Source: Tropicimonas sp. IMCC6043 (lineage in GTDB: Bacteria; Pseudomonadota; Alphaproteobacteria; Rhodobacterales; Rhodobacteraceae). Taken from it: 64,000 nucleotides of DNA. This document shows positions 21,821 through 29,023 of this stretch, piece after piece; the first letter of the stretch is position 1, and the number at the start of each line of letters is the position of its first letter. The DNA lies in contig NZ_SELO01000021.1 in assembly GCF_004146235.1 (NCBI RefSeq), positions 1 to 64,000 on the forward strand, read 5' to 3'. The notes beneath the pieces are model-generated. The model was given only the letters and a program-made list of their open reading frames with translations. It made no database searches and was not told the origin of the DNA. The translations under genes were made by a program, and so were the position numbers.

Positions 21821-23269
21821 TTATTCGGGATCCGTGTTGAAAATCAATCTTTCGTCGCAGGGGGCGACCCGGAGGATGTTGGTCGAGCCGGGAATGTTGA
21901 AGGGAACGCCGGCGACGACGACGATATTGTCCTCGGCATTTGCAAACTGCCCGGCGCGGGCGGCGCGCGCGGCCGAGACCACCGCCATCTTGAAGCGGCT
22001 GACGTCACCATTCGTCATGAAGCAGTTCACGCCCCAGGAGAGGCAGAGCCGACGCGCGGTGTTGGTAAAGGGCGTCAGCGCAAGAATCGGTACCCGCGGC
22101 CGCTCGCGCGCGGTCTTGAGCGCAGTGGTGCCGGAATGGGTGAAGCAACAGATCGCCTTGACGCCGGTGTTCTCGGCCACCTCGCGGGCCGCCGCGACGA
22201 TGCTGTCGGCCGTCGAGGTCCGGTCGACGACGCGCGCCGCCTCGATGATGTCGCGATACATCTGACCCTGCTCGACCTCGACCGCCACCGCGTTCATCGT
22301 GCGCACGGCCTCGAGCGGATACTCGCCAGCGGCGGATTCGGCCGAGAGCATCACCGCGTCCGCGCCCTCGTAGATCGCGTTGGCGACGTCGGAGACCTCG
22401 GCGCGGGTCGGCACCGGGCTCTCGATCATCGATTCGAGCATCTGTGTGGCGACGATCACCGGCTTGGCCGCGGCCCGCGCGGCCCGGATCAGCCGCTTCT
22501 GGATCGGCGGGACCGCCTGGACCGGGAGTTCCACACCCAGGTCGCCACGGGCGACCATGATGCCGTCGGAGACCTCGAGAATGTCCTCGTAGCACTCGAC
22601 CGCCGAAGGTTTCTCGATCTTGGAAAGCACCGCCGCGCGGCCGTTCACAAGTTCCTTGGTGTGCAGGACGTCTTCGGGGCGCTGCACGAAGGACAGCGCC
22701 ACCCAGTCGACTCCGAGTTCACAGACGAAATCGAGATCGGCAATGTCCTTGGGGGACAGCGCCGCCACGGGCAACACCACGTCGGGCACGTTCACGCCCT
22801 TGCGGTTGGAGATCGTGCCGCCGGTCACCACCGTGCAATCGGCAAAATCCTCGCCGCACTTGTCGACGCGCAGGCGGATTTTTCCGTCATTGACCAGCAG
22901 CGTCGCGCCCGGGCGCAAAGCCTGGAAGATCTCCGGATGCGGAAGGCGCACGCGGCTCGAGTCGCCCTCTGCCTCGTCGAGATCCATGCGGAACTTCGCC
23001 CCCTCGACCAACTCCTCGCTGTCGCCGGAGAAGACGCCGACGCGAAGCTTCGGCCCTTGAAGGTCAGCGAGAATTGCGATCGGCCGGCCAAGCTCCTGCT
23101 CGATCTGACGGATCACTGTGTGACGTTCGCGGATTTCTTCGTGCGACCCATGGCTCATGTTGAGCCGGAAGACGTCAACGCCGGTTTCGAACAGCCTCCG
23201 GATCGTGTCGTAGTCGTCAGAAGCCGGGCCAAGAGTGGCCACGATCTTCACATTGCGCATCCGTCGCAT
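21821..23269 (-). CDS. pyk: Pyruvate kinase
   Basis: A 482-residue pyruvate kinase, which converts phosphoenolpyruvate and ADP to pyruvate and ATP. Motifs: KIVATLGPAS and FRLNMSHG at the N-terminus, the active-site helix KIEKPSAVECYEDILEVSDGIMVARGDLGVE, MLESMIESPVPTRAEVSDVANAI, and the C-terminal regulatory domain. GGAAAGG precedes the ATG at 23269, preferred over one five codons upstream. The gene is divergent from the N-formylglutamate amidohydrolase. Confidence 0.96.
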   Translation of the reverse strand: MRRMRNVKIVATLGPASDDYDTIRRLFETGVDVFRLNMSHGSHEEIRERHTVIRQIEQELGRPIAILADLQGPKLRVGVFSGDSEELVEGAKFRMDLDEAEGDSSRVRLPHPEIFQALRPGATLLVNDGKIRLRVDKCGEDFADCTVVTGGTISNRKGVNVPDVVLPVAALSPKDIADLDFVCELGVDWVALSFVQRPEDVLHTKELVNGRAAVLSKIEKPSAVECYEDILEVSDGIMVARGDLGVELPVQAVPPIQKRLIRAARAAAKPVIVATQMLESMIESPVPTRAEVSDVANAIYEGADAVMLSAESAAGEYPLEAVRTMNAVAVEVEQGQMYRDIIEAARVVDRTSTADSIVAAAREVAENTGVKAICCFTHSGTTALKTARERPRVPILALTPFTNTARRLCLSWGVNCFMTNGDVSRFKMAVVSAARAARAGQFANAEDNIVVVAGVPFNIPGSTNILRVAPCDERLIFNTDPE

Positions 23270-23420
23270 GGGCAACCTTTCCATTCTTCCGGCAGGGGTC
23301 CCGAGCCTGCGTATCCCGAGGCGAGTGTTAGCGCCAAAATACACAACATGCCACCCCGCAGGACTCTGGCGCTCCGCCCGCCTTCGCAATACACCATTGC
23401 CGACGAAACATAACCTGCCA

Positions 23421-24164
23421 ATGACATATCACGCCTTCCACACACATGGCGAAACCCGCGGGAGCCGCTGGCTCGTTACCTGCGATCACGCCACCAACAC
23501 CGTACCACCACAGGTGAACGGCGGCACGCTCGGCTTGCCGCAATCGGAGATGTCGCGCCATATCGCCTATGATCCGGGCGCGGCGGGCACCGCCCACGCG
23601 TTGGCCGATGCGCTCGACGCGCCGCTCATCACCTCGAACTTCTCGCGGCTGGTGATCGACCCGAACCGCGGCGAGGACGACCCGACGCTTCTGATGAAGC
23701 TCTATGACGGCACGATCATCCCGGGCAACCGGAAGGCCGGGCCGGCCGAGATCGAGCGCCGGAAGGAGCTGTGCTACCGGCCCTATCACGCGGAGCTCGG
23801 CCGGCTCGCGGCGTCGCGGGCCCGACCGGTGATCGTCGCGGTGCACAGCTTCACGCCGCAGCTCAGGGGACGCCCGCCACGGCCTTGGCACGTCGCGGTC
23901 CTGCACACCGCGCCGCAGAACGCGCTCTCGCTAGCAGCAATCGCGCGGCTTCGCGCCGAGGGCGATATCTGCGTCGGCGACAACCAGCCCTATGCCGGCC
24001 ACCAGCCCGGCGATTCGATCGACCGCCACGCCTTGAGCCACGACCGACCGCATGTTCTGATCGAACTCCGGCAGGACCTGCTTGGATCGGTCGAGGCGCA
24101 GCAGAGCTGGGGCCGCCGCCTCGCGCCGCTGCTCGCGGCGGCGCTGGAGGATTGCGGCGCGTGA
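23421..24164 (+). CDS. N-formylglutamate amidohydrolase family protein
   Basis: A 247-residue member of the N-formylglutamate amidohydrolase (HutG/FGase) superfamily: VTCDHATNTVPP, HIAYDPGAAGTA, NFSRLVIDPNRG and VAVHSFTP are the conserved blocks, carrying probable zinc ligands. The enzyme family releases formate and glutamate; no hut genes are nearby, so the real substrate may differ. The ATG at 23421 lacks a strong ribosome-binding site. A DUF1244 gene follows after 22 bases. Confidence 0.87.
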   Translation: MTYHAFHTHGETRGSRWLVTCDHATNTVPPQVNGGTLGLPQSEMSRHIAYDPGAAGTAHALADALDAPLITSNFSRLVIDPNRGEDDPTLLMKLYDGTIIPGNRKAGPAEIERRKELCYRPYHAELGRLAASRARPVIVAVHSFTPQLRGRPPRPWHVAVLHTAPQNALSLAAIARLRAEGDICVGDNQPYAGHQPGDSIDRHALSHDRPHVLIELRQDLLGSVEAQQSWGRRLAPLLAAALEDCGA

Positions 24165-24186: not shown

Positions 24187-24507
24187 ATGGACGAACAGAC
24201 CCGGATAGAAATCGAGGCCGCCGCCTTCCGTCGGCTGCGCAGGCACCTGATGCAGGACCGCCCGGACGTCCAGAACATCGACATGATGAACCTCGCCGGC
24301 TTCTGCCGGAACTGCCTCTCTCGTTGGTATCAGGAGGCAGCGAACGAACGCGGCATCGACATGGACAAGTCAGAGGCACGCGCGGCCTTCTACGGCATGC
24401 CTTATGACGCGTGGAAGGCACAGCACCAGACCGAGGCCGAACCGGAACAGCAAACGGCTTTCGAAAGGGCGTTCCGAGAGAATGTCGGCACGCCCGACAA
24501 GGGCTGA
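24187..24507 (+). CDS. DUF1244 family protein
   Basis: A 106-residue protein of the DUF1244 (SMc04008-like) family, defined by FRRLRRHLM ... DVQNIDMMNLAGFCRNCLSRWYQEAA ... YGMPYDAWKAQHQTEA. The conserved CRNC pair may bind metal. No function is established. GGAGGGAAGGGAG precedes the start, and it is likely cotranscribed with the amidohydrolase gene. Confidence 0.9.
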   Translation: MDEQTRIEIEAAAFRRLRRHLMQDRPDVQNIDMMNLAGFCRNCLSRWYQEAANERGIDMDKSEARAAFYGMPYDAWKAQHQTEAEPEQQTAFERAFRENVGTPDKG

Positions 24508-24694
24508 GCCGGGCACGCGATTCGCGCCGCTTCAGTCATTTTCCGGCTGCACGGGTCGCGCCGATTTGGACAGGAGTGGAAACGGCACCGCCAATTCAGG
24601 CGGGATTGTTGACGCAAACGCGGCTGTCCTGACGAAAATTTGACGGATCCGACTTGAAATCTCTACCCTGTCCGGCGGGGACAAAGGGAAGACC

Positions 24695-25057
24695 ATGTTT
24701 GAATTGCTGCCGCTCGCAATCGTCGCGCTGTCGATCGCGCTTGCTGCCGCGTCTCTCCTGGGGGAGCGGCTCGACGGGTTGCAACTGGCCGCAGGCTCTC
24801 CTGACGGCGGCCTGCCGCTCGACCCGTATGTCGGCGAGGCAGTGACGTTGAAGGGGTTTGACCCGCGGGCAGAGGCACTGCTGGTGCAGTTGCCGCAAGA
24901 GGTCTTCGAGGACATCGACCACGCCGACTTCGCGACACGCCCGGCGCGCAACGGCGCCGGCCAGGAGCTGCTCTTCCGCGACAGGCTGCTGCTGCGTCTG
25001 CCCGATCTCGCGCCACAGCAGCGCATCGACCTTTTCGTCGAACCGATCCCCAGCTAG
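24695..25057 (+). CDS. Hypothetical protein with N-terminal membrane anchor
   Basis: A 120-residue product with one hydrophobic N-terminal helix (residues 5-22) and a soluble remainder rich in Leu, Asp and Pro. I do not recognise it. The upstream GGGGACAAAGGGAAG fits a ribosome-binding site. It converges with the D-amino-acid transaminase gene with a gap of seven bases. GC content and codon use match neighbours. Confidence 0.55.
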   Translation: MFELLPLAIVALSIALAAASLLGERLDGLQLAAGSPDGGLPLDPYVGEAVTLKGFDPRAEALLVQLPQEVFEDIDHADFATRPARNGAGQELLFRDRLLLRLPDLAPQQRIDLFVEPIPS

Positions 25058-25064
25058 GCGCCGA

Positions 25065-25925
25065 TCAGATCGCCGTCTTGCGGCTCTCGTCCAGATAGAT
25101 CTCGCGCAGCCGCCGCGCCACCGGCCCCGGCGTGCCGTCCCCGAGCGTGGCGTCGTCAATGGCCACAACCGGCATCACGAAGGTCGAGGCCGAGGTGATG
25201 AAGGCCTCGTCGGCTTCCTGCGCTTCAGCAAGCGTGAAGGGCCGTTCCTCGACCTCCATCTGCGCTTCGCGCGCGAAACGCAGGACGGCGGCGCGGGTAA
25301 TCCCGTGCAGGATCTCGGTACCGAGATTGCGGGTGATGATCTTGCCGCCCTTGACGATATAGGCGTTGTTGGACGTGCCTTCGGTGACGGCACCGTCCTC
25401 GATCATCCAGGCATCGTCGGCCCCCGCCGCCTTCGCCATCATCTTGCCCATCGACGGGTAGAGAAGCTGCACCGTCTTGATGTCGCGCCGGCCCCAGCGG
25501 ATGTCGGGTATGGAGATCACCCGGATGCCGCGCTCCGCGGCCGGGCTCTCGGCGAGCCCCGGCTTGGACTGGGTGAAGAGCACCAGCGTCGGCGGCACTT
25601 CCGCGCCCGGGAAAGCAAAATCCCGATCGGCTGGCGCGCCCCGGGTGATCTGGAGATAGACCATCCCGTCGACGATCGAGTTGCGGGCCACCAGTTCGCG
25701 GTGAATCTCCAGCAGATCATCCATCGCTTCCGGAGTGGGCATGTCGAGCTCATCGAGCGAACGCCGCAGCCGCCGAGCATGCCCCTCGAAATCGAGCAAC
25801 TTGCCACCGAGGACCGAAGTCACCTCATAGACGCCGTCGGCAAAGAGGAATCCGCGGTCGAAGACCGAGACCTTCGCCTCCTCCTCGGGAAGATATTCCC
25901 CGTTCACATAGACGATACGGCTCAT
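25065..25925 (-). CDS. dat: D-amino-acid transaminase (PLP class IV)
   Basis: A 286-residue fold-type IV aminotransferase. The PLP lysine is probably the K of DIKTVQLL (about residue 147), and TEGTSNNAYIV and the final TSASTFVMPV match D-amino-acid transaminases, which typically interconvert D-Ala + 2-oxoglutarate and pyruvate + D-Glu. Branched-chain or aminodeoxychorismate relatives are less likely given the N-terminus VYVNGEYLPEEEAKVSVFDRGF. It follows dgcA after nine bases, so the three genes form one operon. Confidence 0.85.
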   Translation of the reverse strand: MSRIVYVNGEYLPEEEAKVSVFDRGFLFADGVYEVTSVLGGKLLDFEGHARRLRRSLDELDMPTPEAMDDLLEIHRELVARNSIVDGMVYLQITRGAPADRDFAFPGAEVPPTLVLFTQSKPGLAESPAAERGIRVISIPDIRWGRRDIKTVQLLYPSMGKMMAKAAGADDAWMIEDGAVTEGTSNNAYIVKGGKIITRNLGTEILHGITRAAVLRFAREAQMEVEERPFTLAEAQEADEAFITSASTFVMPVVAIDDATLGDGTPGPVARRLREIYLDESRKTAI

Positions 25926-25934
25926 GGCTCTCTC

Positions 25935-26900
25935 CTAACCCCAAAGCGCCGCGGCGGGCGGGTGCACCCCCGCGGCATCGTAAACAAGCGGCGTCGCCCG
26001 GTCTTCGGCCAGAAGCAGCGGCCCGTCAAGATCCACCACGGCGGCACCTTGCGCCACCAGCACCGCCGGCGCCATTGCCAGCGAAGAGCCCACCATGCAA
26101 CCCACCATGATGCCGAGACCGGCGGCCTCTGCCTCGGCACGCAGGGCGAGTGCCTCGGTCAGCCCGCCGGTCTTGTCGAGCTTGATGTTGATCAGGTCAT
26201 ATTTGCCGGCCAGCCCGGCGAGCGAAGCGCGGTCATGCACCGATTCATCTGCACAGAGCGGCACCGGACGGTCGAGCCCGATCAGCCCATCATCCGAGCC
26301 GGCAGGCAGCGGCTGTTCGACCATCGCCACACCGAGCCGCGCCAGATGCGGCGCGAGTTCGGCATAGATCTCCGCCGTCCAGCCCTCGTTGGCATCGACG
26401 ATGATCTTCGGCCCCGGCGCACCCGCCCGAACCGCCTCGAGCCGGGCCATGTCATCGGGCGTGCCGAGCTTGATCTTGAGGAGCGGACGGTGCGCATGCT
26501 CCGCCGCCGCCGCCCGCATCGCCTCGGGTTCATCGAGCGACAGCGTGAAGGCCGTTACCATCGGCCCCGGCGCCGGCAACCCCGCCAGTTCCCAGACCCG
26601 TTTTCCGGCCCGCTTCGCCTCGAGATCCCAAAGCGCGCAATCCACCGCGTTCCGTGCCGCACCCGCGGGCAGAAGGTCCTGCAACGCGGCACGGTCGACA
26701 TCTTTGGGCAGGCCCTCGATCTCCTCGGTGACGCTCTCCAGGCTCTCGCCATAGCGCGCGTAGGGCACGCATTCGCCCCACCCTTCGACCTCGTCATCCG
26801 AGACCCGCACTGTCAGCACCTTTGCCTCGGTCCGCGATCCTCGCGAAATCGTAAAGACCTGCGCAAGCCGGAACACGTCCCGCGTCACTTCAATCTTCAT
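25935..26900 (-). CDS. dgcA: DgcA-like epimerase (enolase superfamily; N-acetyl-D-glutamate or dipeptide epimerase)
   Basis: A 321-residue member of the L-Ala-D/L-Glu epimerase subgroup of the enolase superfamily. The catalytic and metal residues are visible: the KxK motif in LLKIKLG, Asp in IIVDANEGW, Glu in VEQPLP, Asp/Glu in CADESVH and Lys in INIKLDKTGG. Next to dgcN it is best read as DgcA, which epimerises N-acetyl-D-glutamate to N-acetyl-L-glutamate. A peptidoglycan dipeptide epimerase is the alternative. Confidence 0.87.
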   Translation of the reverse strand: MKIEVTRDVFRLAQVFTISRGSRTEAKVLTVRVSDDEVEGWGECVPYARYGESLESVTEEIEGLPKDVDRAALQDLLPAGAARNAVDCALWDLEAKRAGKRVWELAGLPAPGPMVTAFTLSLDEPEAMRAAAAEHAHRPLLKIKLGTPDDMARLEAVRAGAPGPKIIVDANEGWTAEIYAELAPHLARLGVAMVEQPLPAGSDDGLIGLDRPVPLCADESVHDRASLAGLAGKYDLINIKLDKTGGLTEALALRAEAEAAGLGIMVGCMVGSSLAMAPAVLVAQGAAVVDLDGPLLLAEDRATPLVYDAAGVHPPAAALWG

Positions 26901-26988
26901 TGCCCTGCCCCGTTGCCTTCTTCTTCTCGTTAATCTCCCCGCCGGAGGCCTGAAACCTCAAACCCTCCGCCCTCAGCGACGGGCTCCG

Positions 26989-27993
26989 TCAGCCAAGTGC
27001 AATCAGCGCATCGACCAGGCGGTCCGCACCGTTGCGGAACGGATCGACCGTCGGCAGTCCCATCTCCGCCTCGACCTCGGCAAGGTAGGCCGCCGCCTCG
27101 TCCTCGGACATGTGCTGCGTGTTGATCGAGATCCCTATCACCTGCACCTCCGGATTGACCCGCGCCGCCAGCAACAGCGAGAGGTCCCTGAGTTCCTCGA
27201 GCGAGGGCAGGGCGTAGTCCGGCAGGCCCCGCATGTGTTCCCGAGTCGGTTCGTGGCAGAGGATCAGCGCGTCAGGTTGGCCGCCATGGACCAGCGCCAG
27301 TGTCACCCCCGAATAAGAGGCGTGGAACAGGCTCCCCTGCCCCTCGATCAGGTCCCAGTGGTCGGGGTCATTGTCCGGCGTCAGCCACTCCACCGCACCA
27401 GCCATGAAGTCTGCCACCACAGCGTCGAGCGGCACGCCGTCGCCGGTGATCAGGATTCCGGTCTGGCCGGTGGCGCGAAAGCTCGCCTTGAGCCCGCGTT
27501 CCTGCATCACGGCATCCATCGCCAGCGCGGTGTACATCTTGCCCACCGAGCAGTCGGTGCCGACGGCAAGGCAGCGCTTGCCGCTCCTCTTGCGGCCATT
27601 GGCGATCGGATAGTCGACTTCCGGAACCCGCACGTCGTGCAACTCCCGCCCTTCGGCGCGGGCGATCTCGACGAGCTCCGGTTCATCGGCCAGCAGGTTG
27701 TGCAACCCGGAGGCAAGGTCGAACCCCTTGAGCAGGGCCTCGGCCAGCACATGCCGCCATTCCGGCGAAATCACGCCGCCGCGGTTTGCCACGCCAATCA
27801 CCATGGTTTCGGCACCGGCTTCGCGCGCCTCTTCGAGCGTCATGTCGGGCAGCCCGAGATCGGCCTTGCAGCCCTCCATACGGAACTGGCCGATTGCGAA
27901 TTCGGGGCGCCAGTCCCGGATTCCACGGGCGACCTTGGCGGCGAGTTGGTCCGGCGCGTCACCGAGAAACAGCAGGTAGGGTGTCTTGATCAT
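26989..27993 (-). CDS. dgcN: DgcN, D-glutamate N-acetyltransferase (DUF1611)
   Basis: A 334-residue DUF1611 protein with an N-terminal Rossmann-like part (YLLFLGDAPDQLAAKVARGI) and a P-loop-type motif GTDCSVGKMYTALAM near residue 156. DgcN proteins of marine proteobacteria are reported to N-acetylate D-glutamate before epimerisation by DgcA. The start at 27993 has an AAGGAG site; seven codons further upstream has none. First gene of dgcN-dgcA-dat; an inverted repeat lies at 28117-28139 in the upstream region. Confidence 0.88.
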   Translation of the reverse strand: MIKTPYLLFLGDAPDQLAAKVARGIRDWRPEFAIGQFRMEGCKADLGLPDMTLEEAREAGAETMVIGVANRGGVISPEWRHVLAEALLKGFDLASGLHNLLADEPELVEIARAEGRELHDVRVPEVDYPIANGRKRSGKRCLAVGTDCSVGKMYTALAMDAVMQERGLKASFRATGQTGILITGDGVPLDAVVADFMAGAVEWLTPDNDPDHWDLIEGQGSLFHASYSGVTLALVHGGQPDALILCHEPTREHMRGLPDYALPSLEELRDLSLLLAARVNPEVQVIGISINTQHMSEDEAAAYLAEVEAEMGLPTVDPFRNGADRLVDALIALG

Positions 27994-28116
27994 CGTCGTC
28001 TCCTTGGCGCGCAAGCTTGCACGCGACGCCCTGGGAAATTTTGTCAGACTTACTGACCCAAAACCAGGGATCCGAGAGGATTTCCCGTAAGTTCAGAGAA
28101 AAGTCGCACAGAATTC

Positions 28117-28139
28117 AACTGCCTATACATTATGCAGTT
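28117..28139. promoter_or_regulatory. Operator-like inverted repeat upstream of dgcN
   Basis: Perfect six-base arms AACTGC (28117-28122) and GCAGTT (28134-28139) flank 11 AT-rich bases, about 125 bases upstream of the dgcN start in the only gap before the operon. Form fits a dimeric regulator site. No regulator gene is adjacent. Confidence 0.4.
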
Positions 28140-28186
28140 TGAAAACCCACGAAATCCGCCCCGATTCGGACATGCATCCTTGAGAT

Positions 28187-29023
28187 TCACGCGAGGCGCG
28201 TCGGCACAACCCACCAGTCCGGATCGGTGCCGGCAAGCGCCTCCGCCGCAGCGCGCGCCGCCGCATCGGTGCCAAACAACCCGAAACAGGTCGCCCCCGA
28301 CCCGGACATCCGCGCCAAGAGGCAACCCGGAAGGGCAGCGAGCTGGGTCAGCACCTGAGTGATTTCCGGTGCCAGCCGGCGTGCCGGCGGTTCGAGATCG
28401 TTGCGCTGCGCCATCAGCCAGGCGGCAAGCGCGACCGCGTCGGTGAGGCCATCGGGCACGGCGCCCATCGGCGGGTTCTCGCGGCAGTCGAGGCCGCGAA
28501 AGACCTCGGGCGTCGAGAGCGCGACGCCGGGATTGACCAGCACCGCCGGCAGGGGCGGCAAGGCCGGCACCGGCGCGAGATCCTCGCCGATGCCCGACAT
28601 ACGCGCGGCCTGCCCCCCGACGCAGACCGGGACATCGGCGCCAAGCGCCAGCAAGGCATCCCGCGGCGGCAGCGGCCGGTGATGCAGGCGGGCCAACGCC
28701 CGCAGCGTCGCCGCCGCGTCAGCCGATCCGCCGCCGATCCCGGAGGAGGCCGGTAGGATCTTTTCAAGCGTGATTGCGGCCGGAGCGCCGGGCATCAGCG
28801 CCGCCGCCTTCAGGACGAGGTTGCTTCCGTCGACGGGCACAGCTGCGCTTCTCAGCCCGGTCACCGCGAACGTTGTCTCGGGTGCGGCAGCGACCGAGAC
28901 TACATCGCCAACATCCGCAAAGACGACAAGGGAATCAAGCAAATGATAGCCGTCCGCCCGGCGTCCGGTGACATGCAGCGCGAGGTTGACCTTGGCCGGA
29001 GCGGCTTCGTCAATGCGCTCCAT
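28187..29023 (-). CDS. ispE: 4-diphosphocytidyl-2-C-methyl-D-erythritol kinase
   Basis: A 278-residue GHMP kinase that phosphorylates CDP-methylerythritol in the MEP isoprenoid pathway. Motifs: [22 protein letters not shown] at the N-terminus, the ATP-binding [20 protein letters not shown] near residue 92 and [14 protein letters not shown] near 237. Its start overlaps the end of the TPR gene by 14 bases, so the two are translationally coupled. Confidence 0.96.

Follow-up and report, generated by a model that had tools for sequence, protein, structure and literature searches.

Three adjoining minus-strand genes, dgcN, dgcA, and dat, form a conserved unit in a 64,000-nucleotide stretch of the genome of Tropicimonas sp. 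IMCC6043 (Rhodobacteraceae; contig NZ_SELO01000021.1, positions 1 to 64,000; hereafter, the window). On balance, we favor the reading, drawn from protein families, motifs, and gene order, that the trio is a D-amino-acid scavenging operon in which D-Ala would yield pyruvate and D-Glu, and D-Glu would then be converted to N-acetyl-L-Glu. The likely role of the trio is to recycle D-amino acids of the cell wall, for the most part through known chemistry. An earlier note on this DNA had placed the three genes side by side, and they do adjoin there, separated by 88 and 9 bp:

dgcN: 26989-27993, minus strand; putative D-glutamate N-acetyltransferase (DUF1611), 334 amino acids, first gene of the trio
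dgcN-dgcA spacer: 26901-26988, minus strand; 88 bp
dgcA: 25935-26900, minus strand; putative N-acetyl-D-glutamate racemase, enolase superfamily, 321 amino acids
dat: 25065-25925, minus strand; putative D-amino-acid transaminase, pyridoxal phosphate fold type IV, 286 amino acids, after a 9-bp gap behind dgcA

All three proteins scored above their NCBIfam cutoffs, bearing out the gene identities given in the earlier note. DgcN reached 556.2 bits against NF041892 (cutoff, 480), carries PF07755 and PF17396, and has 7xrj as its nearest Protein Data Bank (PDB) chain (580.8 bits over 332 residues); its acetyl-CoA:D-Glu N-acetyltransferase activity is assigned by family. DgcA reached 510 bits against NF042940 (cutoff, 400) and stayed under the cutoff of the YcjG-type L-Ala-D/L-Glu epimerase model PRK15129 (309 versus 343 bits). 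Its PDB relatives are 4gfi (365.9 bits) and 1jpd (264.5 bits), the latter of which we take to be Escherichia coli YcjG. Nine DgcA residues (K142, K144, D169, N171, E195, D218, K243, D290, and D292) were invariant in all 127 homologues from dgcN-bearing genomes and sit in KxK, DxN, E, D, KxDK, and DxD motifs, to which we assign the roles presumed for this superfamily, the DxD motif presumably binding the ammonium group of a dipeptide. Since D290 and D292 were kept in 127/127 homologues, the DxD motif does not discriminate a dipeptide epimerase from DgcA. The N-acetylation and epimerization of D-Glu described in the earlier note are known enzymology, and both proteins lie above the equivalog cutoffs for these steps.

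The transaminase, Dat, is of the D-amino-acid and not the branched-chain type, in agreement with the earlier note. It scored 384.7 bits against the D-amino-acid transaminase model NF005209 (cutoff, 320), and branched-chain aminotransferase (BCAT) models were far under their cutoffs (176.6 versus 363 and 144.3 versus 245.55 bits). Its best PDB relatives are 9pxs (187 bits) and 1daa (167.2 bits). Aligned to these relatives, Dat reads F28xxxxY33xV35xS37 / Y90xQ92 / R101xF103, with Y33, R101, F103, K150, and E182 invariant in 149/149 homologues from the family. The accessible sections of two published accounts (PMC12429042 and PMC10671532) give the motif of the Bacillus sp. group I D-amino-acid transaminase as FxxxxYxVxK / YxQ / RxH (the YxQ element appears as HxY in a table of one of the two) and that of the E. 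coli BCAT as YxxxxFxGxR / YxR / MxV. The BCAT motif is absent from Dat. Dat also departs from the Tyr-Arg-His carboxylate trap of group I, as defined in the sections seen of PMC12429042: Tyr and Arg are retained, but His is replaced by Phe (F103) in 149/149 homologues. In place of the group II RxxxxF motif with its R-[RK] dyad, Dat has F28xxxxY33 and Y90xQ92. Because Tyr and Arg are kept while His has become Phe, Dat is, by its motifs, neither a canonical group I enzyme, nor a group II enzyme, nor a BCAT. We also ran a fold search with an AlphaFold model of Dat, used for fold ranking only and with the pocket excluded (mean predicted local distance difference test score of 69.5; residues 100-105 below 50). 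D-Amino-acid aminotransferase chains occupied ranks 1 to 6 (E values of 1e-24 or better), followed by archaeal BCATs (1e-22).

Counting how often dat is linked to dgcNA across the family, as the earlier note had proposed, showed that 124 of 130 dgcN-bearing genomes have the trio on a single strand. The survey took in the window's own genome and 148 others from its order, 149 in all and all of the same family, with loci fetched around dat, and the surroundings of dat were read in 149/149; "no dgcA" below means none within a stretch of up to ~15 kb around dat. A DgcN search of these genomes gave a match in 132, over the NF041892 cutoff in 129. We counted dgcN as present in 130, adding G060 (476.1 bits) to the 129 and leaving out G057, whose sole match (E = 3.1e-50) has the strength of distant paralogues, and G127 (E = 8e-8; its dgcA lies at a contig end). 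Such a distant DUF1611 paralogue was seen in at least 19 family genomes (171-180 bits, frames of 401-521 codons; e.g., G111:C3:18776-19579). The transaminase was above the NF005209 cutoff in 149/149. The six exceptions to linkage were G052, with dgcN-dgcA nearby on the strand opposite dat; G017, G098, and G140, with dgcN and dat on separate contigs; G124, where dgcN is 62 kb away and dgcA still accompanies dat; and G060, with a diverged dgcN-dgcA pair elsewhere in the genome. This diverged pair (L184) and a similar second-type pair in G038 (L185), which is present there in addition to the usual operon, give about 357 and 220 bits when compared with the proteins of the window.

Spacing within the trio was often tight. 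Across the 149 regions, dgcA was on dat's strand in 133, on the opposite strand in 1, and outside the region in 15; among the 133, 104 had fewer than 200 bp between the stop-to-stop frames and 29 were further apart. The distance from the dgcA stop to the dat ATG (n = 124) had a median of 12 nt and was ≤30 nt in 71 loci (11 overlapping), 31-200 nt in 26, and >200 nt in 27. In a second sample of 80 named genome contigs, which overlaps the first (e.g., L311 and G120:C1), all three genes lay on one strand in 75/80, and the other 5 contigs end at or shortly past dgcN or dgcA; the sample comprises the top 80 out of at least 588 and is therefore biased toward close relatives. Ruegeria pomeroyi, a laboratory relative, likewise has the full trio (locus L269). 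The arrangement is not a product of chance. For comparison, the flanking genes mcl and pyk were each detected, by score thresholds, in 84 of the 125 loci where dat has both dgcN and dgcA nearby, a contrast with dgcNA linkage that is inflated by the dat-centered fetching and the thresholds.

Linkage to dat largely ends at the family boundary. Our wider sample, confined to Alphaproteobacteria, held 192 genomes, 3 of them of the window's family. DgcN was found at E ≤ 1e-70 in 57 (55 outside the family), and the transaminase at E ≤ 1e-85 in 120 (111 over cutoff); two transaminase matches carry one in-frame stop each, TAG in one and TGA in the other (G176:C11:184116-184958 and G246:C27:6627-7478, respectively). 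By comparison of coordinates by eye, dat adjoins dgcN in 1 of the 55 non-family genomes (G201) and lies 7 kb away in another (G284), and contig breaks could hide a few more such pairs. In 38 of 40 fetched non-family loci, dgcA was the same-strand neighbor of dgcN (of the other two, the contig of L234 ends 56 bases past dgcN and L235 has no dgcA in its remaining 1.6 kb). In contrast, dat was found in 1/40, with the contigs of L228, L234, and L254 ending too early to tell. Together, these counts indicate that dgcN-dgcA is a general unit and that the joining of dat is largely a Rhodobacteraceae trait.

As we picture the route, Dat would catalyze D-Ala + 2-oxoglutarate ↔ pyruvate + D-Glu, as suggested by its family and motif; DgcN would convert D-Glu + acetyl-CoA to N-acetyl-D-Glu and DgcA would epimerize this to N-acetyl-L-Glu, both by family assignment. 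With DgcN using up acetyl-CoA and withdrawing D-Glu, both D-amino acids of peptidoglycan should be drawn through the trio in a single direction, provided that Dat runs this way and the genes are co-transcribed. The available parts of published work fit this picture: D-amino-acid transaminases are said to work best on D-Ala + 2-oxoglutarate (PMC12429042), the DgcN-DgcA pathway is called an irreversible racemization pathway of considerable energetic cost (PMC12363236), and DgcN-DgcA is proposed as the main D-Glu route in Shewanella psychrophila WP2 (PMC10845958). The full trio is present in Rhodobacteraceae strain LCG007, for which growth on D-Glu, D-Ala, and peptidoglycan is described (PMC11747546, from the part consulted). 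In 17/149 family loci, dgcN has a same-strand ammonium transporter gene upstream of it (e.g., L167:1134-2648; PF00909, 344 bits, one tested), which fits nitrogen scavenging.

Of the three-step route in the earlier note, the gene identities, the known DgcN-DgcA step, and the D-type transaminase are supported, as is linkage across the family; the last stage, the funneling of N-acetyl-L-Glu into arginine, is doubtful. The window's own genome encodes ArgJ (382.4 bits; cutoff, 298). Arginine pathways of the ArgJ type regenerate N-acetylglutamate, so the arginine route cannot consume it net and a deacetylase is needed. We therefore propose that a deacetylase would cleave N-acetyl-L-Glu to L-Glu; ArgE-model matches in the genome, which are possible candidates, were all under cutoff (best, 194.7 versus 297.7 bits, at G000:C70:42181-43221). 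A deacetylase inserted between dgcA and dat was considered and rejected, as the inserts were a metallophosphoesterase (6 loci) and a weak S9-peptidase match (3 loci), and the remaining inserts looked at received no family name from the family search. One candidate N-acyl-Glu hydrolase is the N-formylglutamate-amidohydrolase-like protein (PF05013) encoded at 23235-24164 on the plus strand of the window. Its gene is near dat in 61/149 family loci and within ~6.5 kb of dgcN in 4/40 other alphaproteobacterial loci, and it is weakly tied to dgcN presence (53/125 versus 8/24).

Several observations weigh against the scavenging reading. Dat scored 231.4 bits against TIGR01121 (D_amino_aminoT), under its cutoff of 277.45, and with the trap His replaced by Phe throughout the family, its substrate specificity is extrapolated. 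As far as the consulted sections go, the authors of the LCG007 study assign that strain's transaminase to D-Phe and D-Lys, not D-Ala (PMC11747546), and growth of Nautella, a marine alphaproteobacterium, on many D-amino acids is credited by its authors to deaminases (PMC4836201). Moreover, dat occurs without a recognizable dgcN in 18/149 family genomes (19 with G127). Twelve have neither dgcN nor dgcA near dat (G006, G022, G046, G048, G054, G055, G057, G058, G065, G080, G092, and G113). The other six (G002, G018, G047, G062, G099, and G132) have a full-length dgcA beside dat, and their genomes gave no hit to dgcN at E ≤ 0.001. Given that dat is present in all 149 genomes, these 18 included, and lies beside dgcN in just 1/55 elsewhere, dat clearly also has a role of its own and the drain of D-Glu is not its only one.

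The six orphan DgcAs retain the tabulated catalytic residues and possibly have a DgcN-independent job, such as YcjG-like dipeptide epimerization. Decay of these proteins was rejected, as 5/6 evolve no faster than the Dat distance predicts; G132 is faster (z of 3.04 versus a 95% point of 1.08). Values of dN/dS (nonsynonymous to synonymous substitution rates) were set aside because many pairs had a dS close to or past saturation. Two candidate marker residues were also discarded. Cys/Val 221 did not serve to set DgcN-linked enzymes apart (Cys in 113/129). Residue 23 was Lys in 4/6 orphans, against a residue other than Arg in 4/129 (Fisher P = 7.6e-5, a post hoc value for the best of 321 columns); however, Lys also occurs in 12 of 33 pattern-matched DgcN-linked DgcAs from other Alphaproteobacteria (5/38 were unmatched by the residue-23 pattern).

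The direction of Dat bears on D-Glu supply. A match to the glutamate racemase MurI was found in 147/149 genomes (over cutoff in 50; in pieces or partial in G085 and G133), including the window's own (149.7 bits), and G013 and G141 gave no MurI match even at E ≤ 10. Both are listed with completeness of 100 (G141 is a single contig, G013 ~90 contigs), and both carry dgcN-dgcA-dat. An alanine-racemase relative (PF01168) was present in 9/9 genomes tested, G013 and G141 among them. With no MurI match and an alanine-racemase relative at hand, Dat in G141 may have to run from D-Ala to D-Glu and is a candidate D-Glu source, in keeping with the direction put forward in the earlier note. G013 and G141 also have hits to the Asp/Glu-racemase superfamily (PF01177), too broad to settle D-Glu supply, and such proteins might make D-Glu in G141, which would count against the scavenging direction. 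A further idea, which we advance only tentatively, is that an old Dat with a Tyr-Arg-Phe trap joined dgcNA to form a one-way drain and that in G141, with MurI lost, the operon would both make the sole D-Glu and destroy its excess, setting the D-Glu level of the wall.

Dat might instead operate mainly in reverse or near balance, turning D-Glu and pyruvate into D-Ala and 2-oxoglutarate, with the D-Glu pool kept low by its two exits and D-Ala supplied to the wall; we regard this as unlikely. Transamination is reversible, MurI would make D-Glu without Dat in the window's genome, and dat is ubiquitous in the family, also where dgcN is missing. Yet removal of D-Glu by DgcN would pull Dat toward D-Glu, the alanine-racemase relatives indicate that D-Ala supply needs no Dat, and G141 lacks a MurI match. 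It is more doubtful still that dat is an independent housekeeping gene lying beside dgcNA by descent, its adjacency inherited and of little functional meaning. The universal presence of dat would suit this view, as would G046 and G055, which keep dat between mcl and pyk without dgcNA, and the rarity of the pairing in other Alphaproteobacteria. Nevertheless, linkage to dgcNA outlasts linkage to mcl and pyk, albeit with the inflation noted above, and the dgcA-dat gap is ≤30 nt, sometimes overlapping, in more than half of the loci, although it exceeds 200 nt in 27.

Two alternatives concern the enzymes themselves. We give little credence to the view that DgcA works mainly on L-Ala-D/L-Glu dipeptides, as an epimerase in muropeptide recycling, with racemization of N-acetyl-Glu either absent or only part of its activity. 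Its similarity to YcjG (1jpd), the DxD motif and a YcjG-like loop that it keeps, and the six orphans speak for such a role; the equivalog scores point to DgcA and away from YcjG, the gene is linked to dgcN both within the family and in 38/40 loci beyond it, and the one residue that had looked like a marker of orphan DgcAs failed in other Alphaproteobacteria. We find it least credible that Dat belongs with the branched-chain (L) or (R)-amine transaminases. These enzymes share its fold family, the Ser that closes its first motif is found in that of (R)-amine transaminases too, and archaeal BCATs come next in the fold search, but the BCAT motif is absent, BCAT models score far under cutoff, and the top PDB and fold matches are D-amino-acid aminotransferases.

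Turning to the locus itself, we infer from spacing, strand, and conservation that dgcN-dgcA-dat is one operon. The dgcN start is an ATG at 27993 with AAGGAG ahead, and upstream lies one further feature:

ispE-dgcN intergenic region: 27994-28186, minus strand; 193 bp, presumed promoter region, although the consensus scan gave no promoter

The upstream gene, ispE (NF011202, 350.2 bits), is on the same strand and, being only 193 bp off, may be co-transcribed with dgcN. Downstream of dat lie DUF1244 and N-formylglutamate-amidohydrolase-like genes on the opposite strand and a pyruvate kinase gene. Consensus scans of the locus gave 0 promoter-like sites (0.3 expected from shuffles) and 0 terminator-like sites (2.1 expected), and an Rfam scan of 24500-28700, the dgcN-dgcA spacer included, gave no known RNA family at gathering score. 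In 10/40 non-family loci (L216-L255), a gamma-glutamyltranspeptidase gene lies upstream of dgcN on the opposite strand, within 2.7 kb in 8 (e.g., L250:10484-12406; PF01019, 385 bits, one tested); its product might free D-Glu from gamma-D-glutamyl bonds.

Rhodobacteraceae are abundant among marine bacteria. If the operon works as we propose, D-Ala and D-Glu breakdown would form one genetic unit in this family. Because dat alone (149/149 genomes) is uninformative on D-Glu catabolism, the trio together is the better trait marker, and G141, where no MurI match was found, is a natural test case for the direction of Dat. Cell-wall D-amino acids from dead cells are part of slow-turning marine organic matter, according to the sections seen of PMC10845958 and PMC12363236.

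The linkage of dat to dgcNA was not found described in the accessible parts of the open literature searched, a search that did not include Yu et al. 2023 or Yu et al. 2022, and we do not claim that it is unpublished. Compared with the group I D-amino-acid transaminase of Bacillus sp. YM-1 (1daa), Dat shares the fold, the equivalents of Y31, YxQ, and R98, and the catalytic Lys; it differs in having Phe for the trap H100 and Ser for K35 and in falling under the TIGR01121 cutoff. DgcA shares its family and motif residues with E. coli YcjG, but it lies under the YcjG-type equivalog cutoff and above that for DgcA. The D-glutamate catabolic pathway DgcN-DgcA (EC 2.3.1.312 and 5.1.1.25) was reportedly described by Yu et al. 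(2023, ISME J 17:537), with N-acetyl-L-Glu said to be cleaved to L-Glu in the original description and a regulator, DgcR, reportedly part of the Pseudoalteromonas model. The window has both enzymes, adjacent and above their equivalog cutoffs; it adds a same-strand transaminase gene and has no regulator gene adjacent. D-Ala catabolism by a D-Ala aminotransferase, reportedly described in Pseudoalteromonas sp. CF6-2 (Yu et al. 2022, AEM 88), would be the step in common with our proposed route. The DgcN-DgcA work is said to have used that same strain; if so, both halves have already been described in one strain, which would bring the three-step route near to what is already known. That route mostly combines enzymes already described, and the locus adds another case of known enzymes, here in a conserved arrangement that is largely specific to this family.

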